Part shown: in pieces, positions 9,301 through 15,975 of the stretch
Numbering within the stretch: position 1 is the first letter of the stretch
Layout of the letters: each line of letters opens with the position of its first letter
DNA from: Pedococcus sp. 5OH_020
Lineage (GTDB): Bacteria; Actinomycetota; Actinomycetes; Actinomycetales; Dermatophilaceae
Direction: 5' to 3'
NCBI RefSeq assembly: GCF_027812955.1
Contig: NZ_JAPYZV010000007.1
Span: 1-64,000, forward strand
Length of the DNA: 64,000 bases
Translations under genes and position numbers: made by a program
Notes under the pieces: generated by a model
Seen by the model: the letters and a program-made list of their open reading frames with translations, nothing else
Databases searched by the model: none
What the model was told of the DNA's origin: nothing

Positions 9301-10290
9301 TCAGTCGACCCGGATCCGTGCGGGGCCGGCGACCGTGCGACCGATGACCGGATAGCCAGGTAGCTCGCCCACTACGAGGAGGCCGCCGCTGGTCTGCGCG
9401 TCGGCCAGCATGAGCAGCGTGTCCTCGGTGGCCGAACCGTCGAGGTGCGGCCGCACCCAGTCCAGGTTCCGCCGGGTGCCACCACTGACATACCCAGCCC
9501 GCTGCGCCTCCCGCGCCCCCTCCAACAGCGGCACCGAGGCCGCGTCGAGCTCGGCCCCGACGCCGGAGGCCCGGAGCAGCTTGTAGAGGTGCCCCAGCAG
9601 CCCGAAGCCCGTGACGTCCGTGGCCGCCCGTGCCCCTGCCGCCAGCGCGGCATCGCGAGCGCGGTCGTTGAGCGTCGTCATGGACGCGATCGCCTGCGGG
9701 GACACCTCGCCGGTCGCCTTGTGCCGGTTGTTCAGCATGCCGACGCCGATCGGCTTGGTGAGGGTGATCGGCGCCCCAGCCTCGGCGGAGTCGTTCCGCA
9801 GGAGCTGGTTCGGGTCCGCGAGGCCGGTGACCGCCATCCCGTACTTGGGCTCCGGGTCGTCGATGCTGTGACCACCGGCCACCGCACACCCGGCCTGGGT
9901 GGCGACGTCCAGGCCGCCGCGCAGCACCTCACGCAGGAGCTCCAAGGGCAGCACCGAGCGGGGCCAGCCGACCAGGTTCAGGGCCAGCACCGGCCGACCG
10001 CCCATGGCATAGACGTCGGACAGCGCGTTGGCGGCCACGATGCGACCGAAGTCGTAGGCGTCGTCGACCACCGGGGTGAAGAAGTCGGCCGTGCTCACCA
10101 CCGCGGTCCGGTCGTCGAGGCGCAGCACGGCGGCGTCGTCCCCGTCGTCGAGGCCCACGAGCAGCCCCTCGTGGCTGTCGCCCACGAGGCCTCGAACCAC
10201 CTCCTCGAGTTCCCCGGGCGGGATCTTGCAGGCACACCCGCCGCCGGCGGCATACTGCGTCAGCCTCACGGCCAGGCTCTGAGCGGTCAC
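9301..10290 (-). CDS. selD: Selenide, water dikinase
   Basis: 329 residues from the GTG at 10290. SelD makes selenophosphate, the selenium donor for selenocysteyl-tRNA, from selenide and ATP. The N-terminal active site reads G-G-G-C-A-C-K-I-P-P. The essential Cys and Lys are present, and the Cys form is used rather than Sec. The AIRS-like ATP domain follows, with DDAAVLRLDDRTAVVSTADFFTP and NALSDVYAMGG. It is divergent from selA across 47 bp, so the two probably share a promoter region. Together they imply an active selenocysteine pathway, although selB and tRNA-Sec are not in this window. Confidence 0.95.
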   Translation of the reverse strand: MTAQSLAVRLTQYAAGGGCACKIPPGELEEVVRGLVGDSHEGLLVGLDDGDDAAVLRLDDRTAVVSTADFFTPVVDDAYDFGRIVAANALSDVYAMGGRPVLALNLVGWPRSVLPLELLREVLRGGLDVATQAGCAVAGGHSIDDPEPKYGMAVTGLADPNQLLRNDSAEAGAPITLTKPIGVGMLNNRHKATGEVSPQAIASMTTLNDRARDAALAAGARAATDVTGFGLLGHLYKLLRASGVGAELDAASVPLLEGAREAQRAGYVSGGTRRNLDWVRPHLDGSATEDTLLMLADAQTSGGLLVVGELPGYPVIGRTVAGPARIRVD

Positions 10291-10337
10291 GGTGCCTACG
10301 CTAACCTCACCACCGCACGAGCACCCCTGGAGGACGT

Positions 10338-11642
10338 ATGCCGCAGCCGCCGCCCACGGAGGCGCGCCGGCTGGTGCCCCGGACAGACGTCGTGCTGGCG
10401 GATCCTGCTGTGGTGGCTGCCATCTCACGGTGGGGTCGCGACACGGTGCGCACCGCCGTGGTGACGGCCCAGGACCGCGTCCGGCGCGGCGAGCTCGCTC
10501 CGGACGCGGTGGTCGAGGCCACGCTCGCGGCCCTACCGGTCCGCCCCACCTCGCTCACTCCCGTGCTGAACGCCACGGGCGTCGTCATCCACACGAACCT
10601 CGGCCGCGCGCCCCTGTCGCCGGCCGCAGTGGAGGCCATGACGCTGGCCGCCGGGACCGTCGACGTCGAGTTCGACCTCGCCACCGGCCAGCGGTCGCGG
10701 CGCGGTCGTGGCACCCTCGCCGCCCTCCTCGCTGCGGTGCCGCAGGCCGAGGCCGCCCTGGTCGTCAACAACGGTGCCGCCGCGCTGGTGCTGGCAACCA
10801 CCGCGCTGGCCGCAGGACGGGACGTCGTCGTCAGCCGCGGCGAGATGGTGGAGATCGGCGACGGCTTCCGCCTGCCAGAGCTCATCCAGAGCGCCGGCGC
10901 CAGGCTGCGCGAGGTCGGCACGACGAACCGCACGACGCTCGCCGACTACGAAGCGGCCATCGGCCCCGAGACGGGATGCGTCCTCAAGGTCCACCCCAGC
11001 AACTTCCGGGTCGAGGGGTTCACGTCGTCGGTGGGCGTCGCGGCGCTCGCAACGCTCGGCACGCCCCTGGTCCACGACATCGGCAGTGGCCTCCTCCAGC
11101 CGCATCCGCTCCTGCCCGAGGAGCCGGACGCCGCCCGCTCCCTGGCCGAAGGGGCCTCGGTCGTCACCGCCAGCGGCGACAAGCTCCTGGGCGGGCCGCA
11201 GGCTGGGCTGGTCCTCGGGCGGGCCGACATCGTGGAGACGTTGCGCCGCCACCCGCTGGCCCGGGCCCTGCGCGTCGACAAGACGACCCTTGCCGCCCTC
11301 GAGGCCACCCTGCGAGGTCCCGCCCCGCCGGTGCGGCAGGCGCTCGAAGCCGACCCGCAGGTCCTACGGTCGCGCTGCGAGGCCCTGGTGGCGGCCCTTC
11401 CGGCGGACCTGCGCGCCGAGACCGTTCCAGCGGAGGGAGTGGTCGGTGGCGGTGGCGCGCCCGGGCTGGCCCTGCCCGGGTGGGCGGTCGCCCTTCCCGA
11501 GCCGTACGCCGCGCGCCTCCGGTCGCTGGACCACCCCGTCGTCGCGCGCCTCGAGCGGGGACACTGCCTGGTGGACCTACGGTGCATCGCGGCGGAGGCG
11601 GACGGCGCGGTGCTGGACGCCATCCTCTCCGCCAGGGGGTGA
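10338..11642 (+). CDS. selA: L-seryl-tRNA(Sec) selenium transferase
   Basis: 434 residues from the ATG at 10338, preceded by GGAGG at 10328. SelA is the PLP enzyme that converts seryl-tRNA(Sec) to selenocysteyl-tRNA(Sec) using selenophosphate. Visible features are the N-terminal tRNA-binding region, NATGVVIHTNLGRAPLS, NNGAAALVLATTAL, and the PLP lysine in TASGDKLLGGPQAG near residue 282. Length is close to the usual 430-470. It is convergent with the mau-like operon, with only 43 bp between stops. In many genomes selB follows selA, but here it does not. Confidence 0.95.
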   Translation: MPQPPPTEARRLVPRTDVVLADPAVVAAISRWGRDTVRTAVVTAQDRVRRGELAPDAVVEATLAALPVRPTSLTPVLNATGVVIHTNLGRAPLSPAAVEAMTLAAGTVDVEFDLATGQRSRRGRGTLAALLAAVPQAEAALVVNNGAAALVLATTALAAGRDVVVSRGEMVEIGDGFRLPELIQSAGARLREVGTTNRTTLADYEAAIGPETGCVLKVHPSNFRVEGFTSSVGVAALATLGTPLVHDIGSGLLQPHPLLPEEPDAARSLAEGASVVTASGDKLLGGPQAGLVLGRADIVETLRRHPLARALRVDKTTLAALEATLRGPAPPVRQALEADPQVLRSRCEALVAALPADLRAETVPAEGVVGGGGAPGLALPGWAVALPEPYAARLRSLDHPVVARLERGHCLVDLRCIAAEADGAVLDAILSARG

Positions 11643-11685: not shown

Positions 11686-13248
11686 TCAGGCTGTGATCGT
11701 GCCGCCCTCGAAGGTGCAGGTGAGCTGCCCGTCCGCGGTCGCCACGGTGTCCGTGAGCGGGAACCCGTACTGGCCGGTGGAGCCTCCGGCGAGCTTCCAC
11801 TGGGTCAGCACCGCACCGTAGACCCGCTTCGGCGCAGGCGTCGTCGAGGTCAGGGCCCACAGCTCCCCACGCTGGAAGAACTGCGCCGTCCCCCGCGTGA
11901 CGCTGTGGCTGGCACCCGTGGGATACCCGAGTACGCCACCTTCGCGGCCGGCTGCCACCCACCGTGCGTACATGGGTGCGAAGACGGCCTGCGTGGGGAC
12001 GGGTCCCCCACAGATCGCTCCGTTCTGGAAAGGCTGGATCCAGCCGCTGTTCACGGCCGCCTTCTGCGGTCCGGTGGGGTAGCCGAGAGGCCCGCGCTCG
12101 CGGGACAGCTGTTTCCACGTGGCGTAGCTCTGGCCCACCACGAGCTGTGTCGACGTGACGCTGCTGTCTGCAATGGCACCCTTCTGGAACAGCTGGTACC
12201 AGCCGCCCTGGGTGCTCGTCGCGTACGCGCCGACGGGATAGCCGAGGACCCCGCGCTCGCGCCCGTTGGCCTTCCACAGCGTCCAGCGATAGCCCCACAC
12301 CACCTGCGTGGTCGTGCTGGCGGAGTCGGTGATGGCGCCCTTCTCGAAGATCTGCATCCAGCCGGAGTCGGTGAGACCGCGCACGGTGGCCGCGGTCGGG
12401 TAGCCGAGACGCCCGGTCGGGCCGCCGTTCGCGGCGTAGATCGTGCGCATCCACTCGGTGACGGGGACAGCGCCATACGTGGACGTGTAGTAGATGACCC
12501 CACCCTGGTAGGCGACGTAGCGTCCCCGCCCGTCACCGATGGCCCGCACCGGCCCGCGAGAGGCCTTGAGGTACGACCCCTGCTCGCCCATCGCGTGGTA
12601 CTTCCGGGTGATCGGCTCCCACTTCGGCAGGCACGGCGCGCTGTGCTCGCTGGTGCGGTTGTCCGACAGGGAGGTCGTCGTGCAGTTGGCCCAGTGGTAC
12701 GGCGCGACGCAACTGACGACCCGGCAGTGGACCCCTCCGCTGCACTTGACCTGAGTGTTGCACTGGCCGTAACGGAAGGCGTTGCAGCAGACCCGCCGCT
12801 GGTCGCACGTGGCGGTGGAGCCGGAACCGCACGAGCAGCTCCAGCACCTGCTGTCACAGATGCCGTCACTGCAGCCCGAGGTGCACTTCGAGCAGGAGGC
12901 GTTGCAGTCGACGATGTAGCGGTACCCGCTGCCGCACCAGGAGGAGTCGGCCGCCTTCCACCACCCTGCCGAGAAGCTGCCTGGCGGGCAGGCGTTGACA
13001 CCGTTGTTGATCGTGCAGCAGAAGACGGTCCAGCCGCTGCTCGCCGTGTTGCCCGGTCCGCAGATCGTCGCGTACGCCGGCACTGGCCGCAGCACGTACT
13101 CCTTGGGTTTGGTGACGAGCGCGGCCGCCGCCACGGTGGTCCCGACGAGCAGGTCGCGCCGTCTCACCGGACGCAGACGGCGTGACAGCGACCCGATGAG
13201 CCCGGCGACCCCGCCGGGCCCCTCGATGACGTCGTCCAGCGTGCTCAT
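11686..13248 (-). CDS. Tat-exported Cys-rich MauA-like protein with LGFP repeats
   Basis: 520 residues. A twin-arginine signal (RRRDLLVGTTVAAAALV, residues 29-45) precedes a domain with 22 cysteines between residues 63 and 206. The segment NACPPGSFSAGWWKAADSSWC then YRYIVDCNASC resembles the methylamine dehydrogenase light chain (MauA), in which CPPG..W..C surrounds a tryptophan that becomes part of tryptophan tryptophylquinone (TTQ). PYHWANC near 183-189 could correspond to the second. The C-terminal half carries about five LGFP repeats of roughly 54 residues (RLGYPT, VLGYPV, PLGYPT, VLGYPT, QYGFPL), a module linked to cell-wall binding. It is last in the operon, with ATGA overlap with the gene before it. 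The similarity is by eye, and TTQ formation is inference. Confidence 0.7.
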   Translation of the reverse strand: MSTLDDVIEGPGGVAGLIGSLSRRLRPVRRRDLLVGTTVAAAALVTKPKEYVLRPVPAYATICGPGNTASSGWTVFCCTINNGVNACPPGSFSAGWWKAADSSWCGSGYRYIVDCNASCSKCTSGCSDGICDSRCWSCSCGSGSTATCDQRRVCCNAFRYGQCNTQVKCSGGVHCRVVSCVAPYHWANCTTTSLSDNRTSEHSAPCLPKWEPITRKYHAMGEQGSYLKASRGPVRAIGDGRGRYVAYQGGVIYYTSTYGAVPVTEWMRTIYAANGGPTGRLGYPTAATVRGLTDSGWMQIFEKGAITDSASTTTQVVWGYRWTLWKANGRERGVLGYPVGAYATSTQGGWYQLFQKGAIADSSVTSTQLVVGQSYATWKQLSRERGPLGYPTGPQKAAVNSGWIQPFQNGAICGGPVPTQAVFAPMYARWVAAGREGGVLGYPTGASHSVTRGTAQFFQRGELWALTSTTPAPKRVYGAVLTQWKLAGGSTGQYGFPLTDTVATADGQLTCTFEGGTITA

Positions 13249-13754
13249 GGCCGTCCTCCCTGGCGGACGAGGGTGTCTCGGTCGGTGATGTGCACGGTCT
13301 TGATCAGCTGAGCCGCCCGTGGCACCGAGGCCATCCGGCGGGCATGGCTGCCCAGCACCGTGAACAGACAGAAGGCACGCCCGCCGGAGGAGAAGAAGTG
13401 CTGGGCGGCACTCATGCCCGGCAGCGGCCGCTGCAGCCGGTTCGGGGCGAACTGGGAGGGCGCAAGCCGCGGCATGCCCTGCCGTTCGAAGAGCCCCTGG
13501 TCGGCGACCTCCGGGCCGTAGTCCACCAGCGCGACGAAGATGTCGTCGGGCCCGAGGAGGTCCACGACTCCCGTGCCGAAGTCGCCCCGCGCGGCGGGCA
13601 TCGTCCGGGTGCAGGCGTGCAGCACCGGACGGGTGACGTCCTGAAGGGTCATCGAGCGTGCGGAAGGCTCGAGCGGTTCGGCTCCCGGACGTCGCGTGAC
13701 GGCGACCTGCCAGCCACGCGGCGGAGCAGCCTTGATTCCGTAGTCGTCTGCCAT
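13245..13754 (-). CDS. Unrecognised protein of the mau-like operon
   Basis: 169 residues from the ATG at 13754, two bases after the stop of the CcdA/MauF-like gene; its TGA overlaps the ATG of the MauA-like gene. No signal peptide or membrane helix is evident. Recognisable stretches are GWQVAVTRRPGAEPLEP, DIFVALVDYGPEVAD and GGRAFCLFTVLGSHA. It looks cytosolic and mostly beta-stranded. I do not recognise the family. Tight coupling to both neighbours makes it a component of the same system, perhaps a chaperone or assembly factor for the Cys-rich exported protein (inference). Confidence 0.6.
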   Translation of the reverse strand: MADDYGIKAAPPRGWQVAVTRRPGAEPLEPSARSMTLQDVTRPVLHACTRTMPAARGDFGTGVVDLLGPDDIFVALVDYGPEVADQGLFERQGMPRLAPSQFAPNRLQRPLPGMSAAQHFFSSGGRAFCLFTVLGSHARRMASVPRAAQLIKTVHITDRDTLVRQGGRP

Positions 13755-13756
13755 GC

Positions 13757-14446
13757 CTAGCTCCCCGTCGCCGCGGCCAGGAGGGCTACGGCAGCGCCTC
13801 CGAGCGCCACCCTAGCCACGACCTGCGCCGGAACTGCCCATCGATCGACCGTGCCGAAGACCGCGTGGAGCGCCTCTCGGGACCGCACACGCGCCATGAG
13901 CAACGACGGTACGGCACGCACCACCCCGAACACCGCACCGATCGCGAACCCGACCTCCACGCGTCCGCTCAGCGTCGCGAGCAACACCACCGCGTACGTC
14001 GTCGCGCTCGTGACGATCGTGACCAGCCCGAACCCGAGCTGGGCACCGAAGCCGACGCCGTAGACCCAGCCGCGGTACCGGGTGAGCCACTGCTCGTCCA
14101 CCTGTCGGCGCCACGACGGCACGCCAGCGCCACCGGGGCGCAGGTCGAGCGCCAGTCCCAGCAGGAGGAGGCCGCCTGCCGCGAGCAGCGCCCAGCGTGA
14201 GCCGCGGACTGCGTCCGGGAGAAGGCCGCCGAGTAGCGCGGCGAGGCCACCGAGAGCCAGACCGCCGGCCAGCGAGCCGACCAGGTATGCCGCGGTGGTC
14301 AGCCACCACCGGGAGCCGCGGGCCCGCTCACCGAGCGGGCTGATGCTGGAGAGCATCGACTCGCCTCAAGGCGACCACGTGGCGCGCACCGCCGCGACCA
14401 CGGCCATGGGCAGCCCCAGGCCGAGCGCGAGAGTCGTCACCGACAT
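13757..14446 (-). CDS. CcdA/MauF-like membrane protein with in-frame UGA; candidate selenoprotein
   Basis: From the ATG at 14446 (four bases after the upstream stop) the frame reads M-S-V-T-T-L-A-L-G, a first membrane helix, then A-T-W-S-P-UGA-G-E-S-M-L-S-S-I-S-P, and continues without interruption to 13757. The UGA (14368-14366) is codon 27. In CcdA/DsbD-type electron carriers the first helix ends in an S-P-C motif, so UGA replaces that cysteine. The rest, about 200 residues with no cysteine at all, has about five more membrane helices (TTAAYLVGSLAGGLALGG; LGFGLVTIVTSATTYAVVLL). Reading from the internal ATG at 14356 would give a 199-residue protein lacking helix 1. selA and selD lie about 2-4 kb away. 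A nonsense mutation from UGC is the alternative. Confidence 0.7.
14322..14340 (-). promoter_or_regulatory. Possible bacterial SECIS hairpin downstream of the UGA
   Basis: On the coding strand, GCCCGCTC-GGT-GAGCGGGC forms a perfect 8-bp stem with a three-base loop starting with G. The loop begins about 33 nt after the UGA. Bacterial SECIS elements recognised by SelB are expected about 16-37 nt downstream, with a G among the first loop bases. A second, shorter hairpin (GATGCT-CTCC-AGCATC, loop about 14 nt after the UGA) lies between and is a less good fit. Confidence 0.55.
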
Positions 14447-14449
14447 GGT

Positions 14450-15445
14450 TCAGCGTCCGTGGTCCGCGTGGTCCGCGTGGTCCGCGTGGTCCGCGTGGTC
14501 CGCGTGGTCATGGTGGTCATGGTGGTCATGGTGGTCATGGTGGGCATGGCTGGCGTGGTCGTGATGGTGGCCGTGGTTGTGGTCGTGGTGGTGACCCTCG
14601 GTGTCCGGATGCTCGCCGTCCAGAACTCCGCCATCCAGAACTCCGCGATCCAGAGCCTCGACATCCGGCGACTGGAAGAGGCTGGGGTCGCCAGGTCGCA
14701 GGCCGGCGGCCAGCAGCTCCTCGTCCATCCGCGGGACGTTGTCGCGCTCGCCGCGGCCGAGGTCCTCGCCGACCAGCAGGCCGGGGCCGCTGCGGCCCGC
14801 GGCGGCACGGGCGTCCGCGCTGTCGGAGACGCCTTGCGCCATCAGGTCCCGCACCTGCGGCCAGGTCGTCGCCGAGCCCTCCCCGGTGATCCGACCGCCC
14901 TCCACGTAGACGAAGTAGGGGGAGCCCGGGATGTCGTAGTCGGTCCAGGCCCCCGAGGACTGCACGACCGGCAGGTCTCCGGCGAGCTTGCGAAGGCTCG
15001 GCACCGACTCCTCCTCCGGCCCCTTGGCTACCACGCGCAGGTCTCCGTTGCCCGGCACGTCGACCTCCTGCCTGAACTCCTGCCAGAACGTCTCGCAGAC
15101 GCTGCATCCGCTCGTGAGAAACGCCAGCAGCGTCCGCGACCCGGGCGTCGTCACGGTCACGGTCGTCTCGGCACGGTCGAGGTCGGTGCCGACGATGTCG
15201 CGTGCCCGGGTCGACTCCTTCCTGCTGGCCGGGACGACGCCCGGCTCCAGCTCCACCGGGACCGGCCCCGGACCGCCTCCGGTCGTGGCTCGAGTCACCC
15301 CGGTGCCCGCTTCCTTCTCGAGCTCCAGGCCCGCACCCAGCTCGTGAAGCGCCTTGAGGATCAGGGCGTGGCTTCGCAGGAGCCCCAGGACCAGGACGCC
15401 GAGCAGGGCGATGGCGACGCCCTCGGCGACGACTGCAGCAAGCAT
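14450..15445 (-). CDS. Membrane-anchored thioredoxin-like protein (MauD/TlpA type) with His-rich tail
   Basis: 331 residues from the ATG at 15445. An N-terminal membrane helix (AEGVAIALLGVLVLGLL) precedes a thioredoxin fold with active-site-like SGCSVCETFW and the cis-Pro region DIPGSPYFVYVEGG. MauD plays this role in methylamine dehydrogenase light-chain disulphide assembly. The last 50 residues are almost only His, Asp and Ala (HHHDHNHGHHHDH, then repeated HDH and HAD units), a likely metal-binding tail not usual for MauD. It starts two bases after the MauE-like stop and ends four bases before the selenoprotein start. Confidence 0.8.
   Translation of the reverse strand: MLAAVVAEGVAIALLGVLVLGLLRSHALILKALHELGAGLELEKEAGTGVTRATTGGGPGPVPVELEPGVVPASRKESTRARDIVGTDLDRAETTVTVTTPGSRTLLAFLTSGCSVCETFWQEFRQEVDVPGNGDLRVVAKGPEEESVPSLRKLAGDLPVVQSSGAWTDYDIPGSPYFVYVEGGRITGEGSATTWPQVRDLMAQGVSDSADARAAAGRSGPGLLVGEDLGRGERDNVPRMDEELLAAGLRPGDPSLFQSPDVEALDRGVLDGGVLDGEHPDTEGHHHDHNHGHHHDHASHAHHDHHDHHDHHDHADHADHADHADHADHGR
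14459..14575. repeat. Short tandem repeats encoding the His-rich tail
   Basis: Nine-base units (tccgcgtgg, about five copies, 14459-14505) followed by tcatggtgg copies (14506-14541) on the plus strand encode repeated H-A-D and H-D-H triplets of the thioredoxin-like protein. These are coding microsatellites likely to vary in copy number. Confidence 0.85.
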
Positions 15446-15447
15446 GT

Positions 15448-15975
15448 TCAGCCCTTCGTGGTGCCGCGGATGGCGGCAGGGGAGACGGTGGGCAGGACGG
15501 CCATGACCTGCCAGGCCAGGAAGCCGACCAGCAGGGCGAGTGCCACGGTCGTCACGGTGGCGGCGTCGACGGCCGACCAGGCGCCCTGCGGTGGCTCCAG
15601 TGCGACGGCGACGCCCGTCAGCGCCGCAAGCCCGGTGAGCGCCGCATGCGTCCGCGTGGCCGGCGTGTCCGGCTTGCCGAAGCAGCCGCACGACCCGAGG
15701 ATGCCGCCGCGCGTGAGGACCCGCACCACGAACGCCGTGAAGACCAGGTACGCCGTCGCGACCAGCGCCGCGCCGATCCGCCCGGGCGCCAGCACCGCCC
15801 AGCCACCCACCAGGACCTCGGCAGCGGCGAAGCCGCGCACGACCAGGCGGTTGGCCGGCAGCCCGGCGGCGCGCAGGGCCCGGACGAGGGGCATGGGGTC
15901 GGCGACCTTGGGCACTCCGGCCACGACGAGCAGCCCCGCCGCGGCGAGGAACGGTCCGGCAGCTACGTCCCACAT
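15448..15975 (-). CDS. MauE/DoxX-like redox membrane protein
   Basis: 175 residues with four predicted membrane helices, beginning with GPFLAAAGLLVVAGVPKVADP, the usual DoxX/MauE opening. The GGILGSCGCFGKPD motif near residue 95 matches the conserved Cys pair region of MauE-type proteins, which are needed for methylamine dehydrogenase light-chain maturation. It is first in the five-gene operon, whose promoter should lie in 15976-16130. No other mau gene (mauB, mauG) is present, so the substrate is probably the Cys-rich protein at the operon end. Confidence 0.8.
   Translation of the reverse strand: MWDVAAGPFLAAAGLLVVAGVPKVADPMPLVRALRAAGLPANRLVVRGFAAAEVLVGGWAVLAPGRIGAALVATAYLVFTAFVVRVLTRGGILGSCGCFGKPDTPATRTHAALTGLAALTGVAVALEPPQGAWSAVDAATVTTVALALLVGFLAWQVMAVLPTVSPAAIRGTTKG

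Follow-up and report, generated by a model that had tools for sequence, protein, structure and literature searches.

Does the TGA triplet that interrupts an otherwise open reading frame in Pedococcus sp. 5OH_020 terminate a short peptide, or is it read as selenocysteine (Sec)? The window, by which is meant the whole 64,000-nucleotide stretch of DNA analysed, carries on its minus strand a frame that runs from an ATG at 14446 to a TAG at 13757 (13757..14446), specifies 229 residues and contains one in-frame TGA, at codon 27 (14366..14368). In the translated frame a hydrophobic helix and the residues WSP precede this codon and GESMLSS follows it, so that the site reads WSP-U-GESMLSSISPLGER, with U aligned to the Cys of the WSPCG motif of MauF. 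There is no Cys elsewhere in the protein, here called Sec-MauF, and residue 27 is the only site of its kind. The gene is separated by 3 nt from the stop of the ORF before it, and 2 nt lie between its own stop and the start of the ORF that follows. An earlier note, made from these letters alone, had claimed a UGA inside a frame opening at ATG 14446, ends that fit the spacing of an operon and the lack of any other Cys, and each of these statements holds. A gene finder halting at the TGA would report Sec-MauF as a 199-residue ORF.

Judged from sequence, the gene at 13757..14446 very probably (probability roughly 0.93) encodes a Sec-containing MauF, that is, a selenoprotein. The computed support consists of conservation of the UGA, exchange between Cys and Sec, a downstream hairpin, co-occurrence with the Sec machinery, homology to MauF and conservation of the operon.

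The UGA codon is conserved and exchanges with cysteine

A homologue was present in 14 of 149 sampled genomes of the order (the source genome included), and all 14 had exactly one internal TGA, which excludes chance. TGA was likewise present in 6/6 named GTDB loci (two Phycicoccus, Pedococcus, Piscicoccus, Kineosphaera and one MAG). More widely, profile matches were obtained in 64/394 genomes of the class and 59/296 of the phylum; eight weak class matches proved on inspection to be ordinary CcdA-like SPC proteins, and a hand count put a TGA inside the match in 43 of the 296 Actinomycetota genomes sampled. Reading of 77 distinct sites, among which three pairs are near-identical and all share descent, gave TGA in 70 and TGC in seven. 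This set was confined to N-free sites within profile hits at E 1e-6, with at least 60 bases before and 90 after the codon, and to two motif patterns permitting only U or C; two sites of the form SGST-U-S (L053, L055) are thus excluded from the 70. An 81-row alignment built without any choice of U or C had TGA or TGC in 76 rows, a gap in four and a masked position in one, and no other codon in real sequence. The proposal that Sec replaces Cys, and the alignment of homologues that had been suggested as its check, are therefore borne out: UGA stands opposite UGA in 70 of the 77 sites and opposite Cys (TGC) in the other seven, and the 81-row alignment shows the same exchange.

Were the UGA a true stop, the locus would hold a 26-residue leader and a second ORF starting at the ATG at 14356 or nearby, perhaps translationally coupled to it, and the downstream ORF does possess an ATG at 14356, four codons past the UGA. 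However, the codons 5′ of the UGA have been kept as protein (differences of 0.353, 0.266 and 0.513 at codon positions 1, 2 and 3 across 39 genes, position 3 being the highest), so this region is translated in the frame of Sec-MauF; moreover, it is contiguous with WSPCG in MauF and in seven actinobacterial Cys homologues. Stops at the site are all TGA (70/70, among sites selected for TGA or Cys), with no other codon in the unselected alignment, and SelA was found in 51/51 UGA genomes as against 0/5 Cys genomes given. On these grounds a stop followed by an internal start was rejected as very improbable. A start of the homologues at 14356, which the earlier note had named as a finding that would refute its claim, is ruled out by the conservation of the upstream codons and of WSP, and by Cys-type MauF proteins that run uninterrupted through WSPCG.

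At least three UGA subfamilies could be told apart: one marked by WSP-U-G.SM, a second in which (F/Y)GP-U-GLSMVETI predominates, and a third, further diverged, with GYSLSGSV-U-(S/T).NS, into which the two SGST-U-S variants (L053, L055) fall. The divergent subfamily (L045-L053, L055, L061 and L125-L131) probably represents one more branch of Sec-MauF, carried by other bacteria of the same class; at L127, L129 and L130 its UGA gene sits beside MauE and MauD-like genes and one for a Cys-rich exported protein. One genome (G605; loci L140 and L141) has both a Cys-type WSPCG copy and a divergent UGA-type copy, TSTG-U-GTS. A tree drawn by a quick method with long branches flagged, from which five rows without the site and one window copy were left out, requires at least four Sec/Cys changes, two of them forced by well-supported branches.

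A GG-loop hairpin lies downstream of the UGA

The bacterial SECIS is a hairpin just downstream of the UGA with a G in its apical loop. A candidate in the window, GCCCGCTC-GGT-GAGCGGGC (14322..14340, minus strand), pairs perfectly over an 8 bp stem, and its GGU loop comes 33 nt downstream of the UGA. A second hairpin, GATGCT-CTCC-AGCATC (14342..14357, minus strand), stands just 3′ of the UGA and occurs in many relatives; it may extend the SECIS, or may follow from the conserved SMLSSI codons.

GGU-loop hairpins with stems of at least 6 bp were found in 52/70 UGA genes (synonymous shuffles: mean 3.1, maximum 10), and hairpins with any GG loop and the same minimum stem in 63/70 (mean 11.3, maximum 19), figures to be read with the GG motif having been picked after hairpins were seen and with shuffles overstating independence among sequences related by descent. 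An initial version of the loop test, with stems of at least 5 bp, had given 43/55 (shuffle mean 4.2, maximum 10); it was extended from 55 to 70 sites and the stem raised to at least 6 bp. Cys genes had the GGU loop in 0/7 cases and a GG loop in 1/7, a set so small (five, then seven) that the zero is weak taken alone. A GG-loop hairpin of this length was absent from seven of the 70 UGA genes and a GGU-loop one from 18, among them L033, whose cluster holds a true mauA.

Within the 63 GG-loop hairpins, at least three pair types occurred at each of stem positions 1–7, counted inside found hairpins only (position 4, for example, was G-C in 30, C-G in 26 and T-A in seven), and the loop GG varied among genes between codon phase 0 and codon phase 2. 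Such variety of stem pairs, together with two loop phases, indicates that it is the RNA that has been kept, not protein alone. Folding energy relative to synonymous shuffles was lower after the UGA (mean z −0.98, n = 55) than in an upstream control (−0.05), but failed to separate UGA from Cys genes (z −1.51, 0.45, −0.38, −0.78 and −1.62 in five Cys genes), and the loop-specific test was therefore relied on instead.

Selenocysteine machinery in the same genome and across relatives

As had been noted from the letters, genes for selenocysteine synthesis are near at hand: selA at 10338..11642 on the plus strand (TIGR00474, E 4.4e-125) and selD at 9301..10428 on the minus strand (TIGR00476, E 1.4e-115; start probably 10290), the latter encoding the Cys form of selenophosphate synthetase (GGCACK) and not a Sec form. 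The window is one contig (C30) of a 4.43 Mb genome rated 100% complete, and the search for selB and tRNA-Sec elsewhere in the genome that the earlier note had recommended found the two adjoining on another contig, C2 (tRNA-Sec 78.6 bits; ARAGORN anticodon tca). C2 also carries a formate-dehydrogenase match that contains a single TGA (G000:C2:28218-28961), and the genome thus seems to have a second selenoprotein, of known kind.

SelA scored above cut-off in all 51 UGA genomes given and in none of the five Cys genomes given; a further Cys genome, G526, was absent from the SelA matches of the phylum sample. G605, which has a divergent UGA copy besides its Cys copy, had SelA. Across the phylum sample as a whole SelA was above cut-off in 181/296 genomes. 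Among the 43 phylum genomes with UGA, 40 had SelA at E 4.2e-70 or better; the three without a strong match were two genomes 68 and 73% complete with no SelA match (G735 and G748) and G697, which is 94% complete and in which no more than a weak fragment matched (E 2.4e-12). Co-occurrence with tRNA-Sec is less telling, as the model also scores tRNA-Ser at its cut-off, and 55/56 genomes lay above it. The five Cys genomes had best tRNA-Sec E values between 3.1e-10 and 2.7e-8, and the UGA genomes 1.1e-11 or lower, with four exceptions (G782, 3.2e-11; G560, 1.3e-10; G651, 2.0e-9; G288, 4.5e-6).

These data also bear on whether Trp, Cys or Arg, as an ordinary residue, might be inserted at the UGA, by near-cognate decoding or under a changed code. 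The one point in favour is the open frame to either side of the codon. Against it, TGA serves as a normal stop elsewhere in the window, for instance in the gene directly upstream; the replacement codon is TGC in 7/7 cases; SelA is missing from 5/5 Cys genomes given; and the SECIS-like hairpin exceeds synonymous shuffles. Ordinary readthrough was rejected for these reasons, its chance of being correct being slight in the extreme, and selenocysteine remains the preferred reading of codon 27.

Sec-MauF is a MauF, with CcdA as a remote relative

In profile comparisons with hhalign, the 81-row family matched five MauF proteins with a probability of 99.8 (E 7.5e-30, 201 columns), and A1 matched Paracoccus denitrificans MauF alone with 99.3 (E 1.2e-20, 198 columns), WSPC falling on WSP-U. 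MauF from the mau cluster of P. denitrificans PD1222 contains LLSTWSPCGYSS. The only Cys common to all five canonical MauF proteins is that of WSPCG, the place at which Sec-MauF has Sec; in the family alignment this C/U column is occupied in 76/81 rows, and the next-best Cys column in 8/81. Eight CcdA proteins were matched by the family at 91.9 (E 7e-7, 166 columns, SPC on SPU), and the five canonical MauF proteins matched CcdA at 16.3 (E 0.0016). The CcdA relay works through two Cys in the membrane domain (PF02683, shared with DsbD); the second redox Cys of this type is absent from Sec-MauF. Of the description 'CcdA/MauF-like' first attached to the protein, the MauF part stands, whereas CcdA/DsbD proves to be a remote relative only. 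We know of no clear role ever assigned to MauF.

An AlphaFold2 model computed from seven sequences (pLDDT 85.1, pTM 0.83) has a predicted helix at residues 3–24 that ends just before the SP-U-G break. Fold searches of the PDB with this model returned no significant match, CcdA (5vkv) ranking 26th (E 0.7, TM 0.31). By the positive-inside rule, which orients membrane helices, the Arg-rich loops at residues 41–46 and 103–125 suggest a location for Sec27 in the cytoplasmic direction along helix 1, near that end.

Remote likeness to the CcdA profile (91.9, E 7e-7) and the SP-U break where the first helix ends would both suit a CcdA-like importer of electrons, by which the MauD-like protein encoded next to Sec-MauF would be reduced for isomerisation or reduction, and not oxidation. 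This is possible, if somewhat doubtful: CcdA uses two Cys, while a single shared site is found here and in MauF, canonical MauF alone matches CcdA poorly, and the structure search gave no significant match.

A conserved operon with a cysteine-rich exported protein

All genes of the operon lie on the minus strand. The first encodes the membrane protein MauE (15448..15975; PF07291, CGCF motif) and the second a MauD-like protein (14450..15445) with a CSVC motif, a hydrophobic N-terminus and a His-rich tail. After Sec-MauF come F3, a small conserved protein (13245..13754) without a Pfam or NCBIfam match, and F2, a Cys-rich protein with LGFP repeats (11686..13248; PF08310), the proposed substrate, in which a twin-Arg signal was seen by eye only, no signal model being matched. 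Across 47 loci, the window included, a MauD-like gene was near in 37, MauE in 32, F2 in 29 and F3 in 27, and the commonest gene order was MauE, MauD-like, Sec-MauF, F3, F2. The MauD-like family matched the MauD profile at 99.7 (E 4.8e-26) and retained its CxxC in 37/37 cases. In the window, its C-terminus (14450-14630) forms a long His/Asp repeat tail (HDHHDHADHADH), possibly metal-binding.

Among 30 aligned F2 rows, 12 columns hold a Cys in at least 70% of sequences, the same number as the 12 Cys of P. denitrificans MauA, with which F2 gave a weak match, in part in the signal region (86.0, E 5.1e-6). Proteins of another subfamily, F11, matched MauA better than F2 did (97.0, E 1.2e-10), again in part in the signal region; F29 and F28 did not match it, nor did the window F2 protein match any Pfam light-chain model. 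A twin-arginine signal model was above cut-off in two scanned exported proteins of relatives (L113, L120). The Cys-rich exported partners carry varied tails: LGFP repeats in the window (11686-13248), peptidoglycan-binding domains, or cell wall binding domain 2 just below cut-off (examples in relatives are L127 7370-8287 and L123 5128-6495).

One relative, L101, has Sec-MauF clustered with MauE, a MauD-like protein and the methylamine dehydrogenase light chain mauA (PF02975, E 2.9e-29); the heavy chain may be a 441-residue protein for which Pfam has no match. This actinobacterial cluster (L101 3908-8421 and upstream) also holds a protein that by eye resembles multicopper oxidases. L101 is the point in favour of an operon that makes a TTQ-type quinone-cofactor amine dehydrogenase, with Sec-MauF serving formation of the cofactor. 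For the window this is unlikely, since its own Cys-rich protein has no light-chain match in Pfam and bears LGFP repeats, two relatives have peptidoglycan-binding or sub-threshold cell wall binding domains, and MauG had no match in eight genomes, searched without a positive control.

In P. denitrificans, MauE and MauD are needed for the disulfides of the methylamine dehydrogenase light chain, MauA, which is exported by the Tat route. On the simplest reading, the unit of MauE, MauD-like protein and MauF probably forms or corrects disulfides of Cys-rich exported proteins, and in Actinomycetota Sec takes the place of the one Cys that MauF proteins have in common. The steps that we infer, from Sec insertion in the cell through redox partners and the direction of electron flow to the substrate, would run as follows. 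SelB and tRNA-Sec of this genome would read the UGA of codon 27 as Sec, helped by the downstream hairpin. The product would be a membrane protein built of helices, the first of them ending at WSP-U, and Sec27, standing where MauF proteins have their one shared Cys, would be its sole redox-active residue. Together with MauE (CGCF) and the thioredoxin-type MauD-like protein (CxxC), it would act on the Cys-rich protein encoded in the operon, which is probably exported by Tat and in the window bears LGFP repeats. As Sec-MauF has no partner Cys, Sec27 must pair with a different protein, most likely through the CxxC of the MauD-like protein; the three proteins would most likely pass electrons, or swap disulfides and selenenylsulfides, as substrate disulfides form or are corrected. 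Sec attacks disulfides faster than Cys and returns from selenenylsulfides easily.

Sec-MauF among known selenoproteins and mau systems

The locus had been put forward as a candidate new selenoprotein, and conservation of the UGA, the machinery and the hairpin all support that. None of the 87 prokaryotic selenoprotein families in a 2022 table is named MauF, CcdA, DsbD or MauE (PMC9312934), a comparison made by name, for the tabled hypothetical proteins too. The accessible text of the 2025 deep-Sep paper names no such protein among its new families (PMC12013277), and Sec-MauF had no match in NCBIfam 20.0 or Pfam. Among the matches listed in the open literature, as far as their accessible text extends, no paper deals with a Sec-containing MauF, MauE or CcdA, and an earlier description outside it is possible. 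Sec-MauF is thus apparently a widespread selenoprotein family that has gone uncatalogued.

According to the accessible text of a 2006 survey, no selenoproteome was without FdhA or SelD (PMC1794560). At least 21 of 33 Sec-MauF genomes gave a formate-dehydrogenase match bearing a TGA (G438, G475 and G773 not being among those searched alone). In nine of the 33, each searched alone, there was no formate-dehydrogenase match with a TGA inside, in a search that a TGA outside the matched stretches would escape; SelA is present in all nine (G108, G004, G318, G411, G189, G555, G560, G676 and G782). Sec-MauF may therefore help to explain why these genomes retain the Sec machinery, formate dehydrogenase being the one selenoprotein searched for. 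We tentatively suggest, as a prospect about evenly balanced, that Sec-MauF is a common selenoprotein of Actinomycetota at the heart of selenium-dependent folding of Cys-rich, Tat-exported, wall-associated proteins, and that it may sustain the Sec machinery where a genome has no Sec-containing formate dehydrogenase. The UGA stands 26 codons into one gene of an operon with tight coupling, so the supply of selenium would then also set the expression of the genes downstream. Sec-MauF would tie selenium to the maturation of exported proteins, and it gives MauF a defined single redox residue that is open to testing.

Comparison with known systems places the protein as follows. The MauF proteins of Paracoccus denitrificans, Methylobacterium sp. 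DM1 and Indioceanicola profundi (L132, L135, L136) resemble Sec-MauF in the WSP-C/U-G motif and the RxQV loop, and canonical MauF, like Sec-MauF, is found in the company of mauE and mauD; it has Cys, however, where the window protein has Sec. In the operon of the window, mauB, mauG, amicyanin and a Pfam-level mauA were not seen, and the partner is a Cys-rich protein with LGFP repeats. CcdA and DsbD show a profile likeness to the family that is remote and weaker than that of MauF, and their two-Cys feature is missing in Sec-MauF. With known prokaryotic selenoproteins, finally, Sec-MauF shares a Sec that occupies a Cys position in a family linked to redox chemistry, Cys-bearing homologues where the genome lacks SelA, and a hairpin like the bacterial SECIS.
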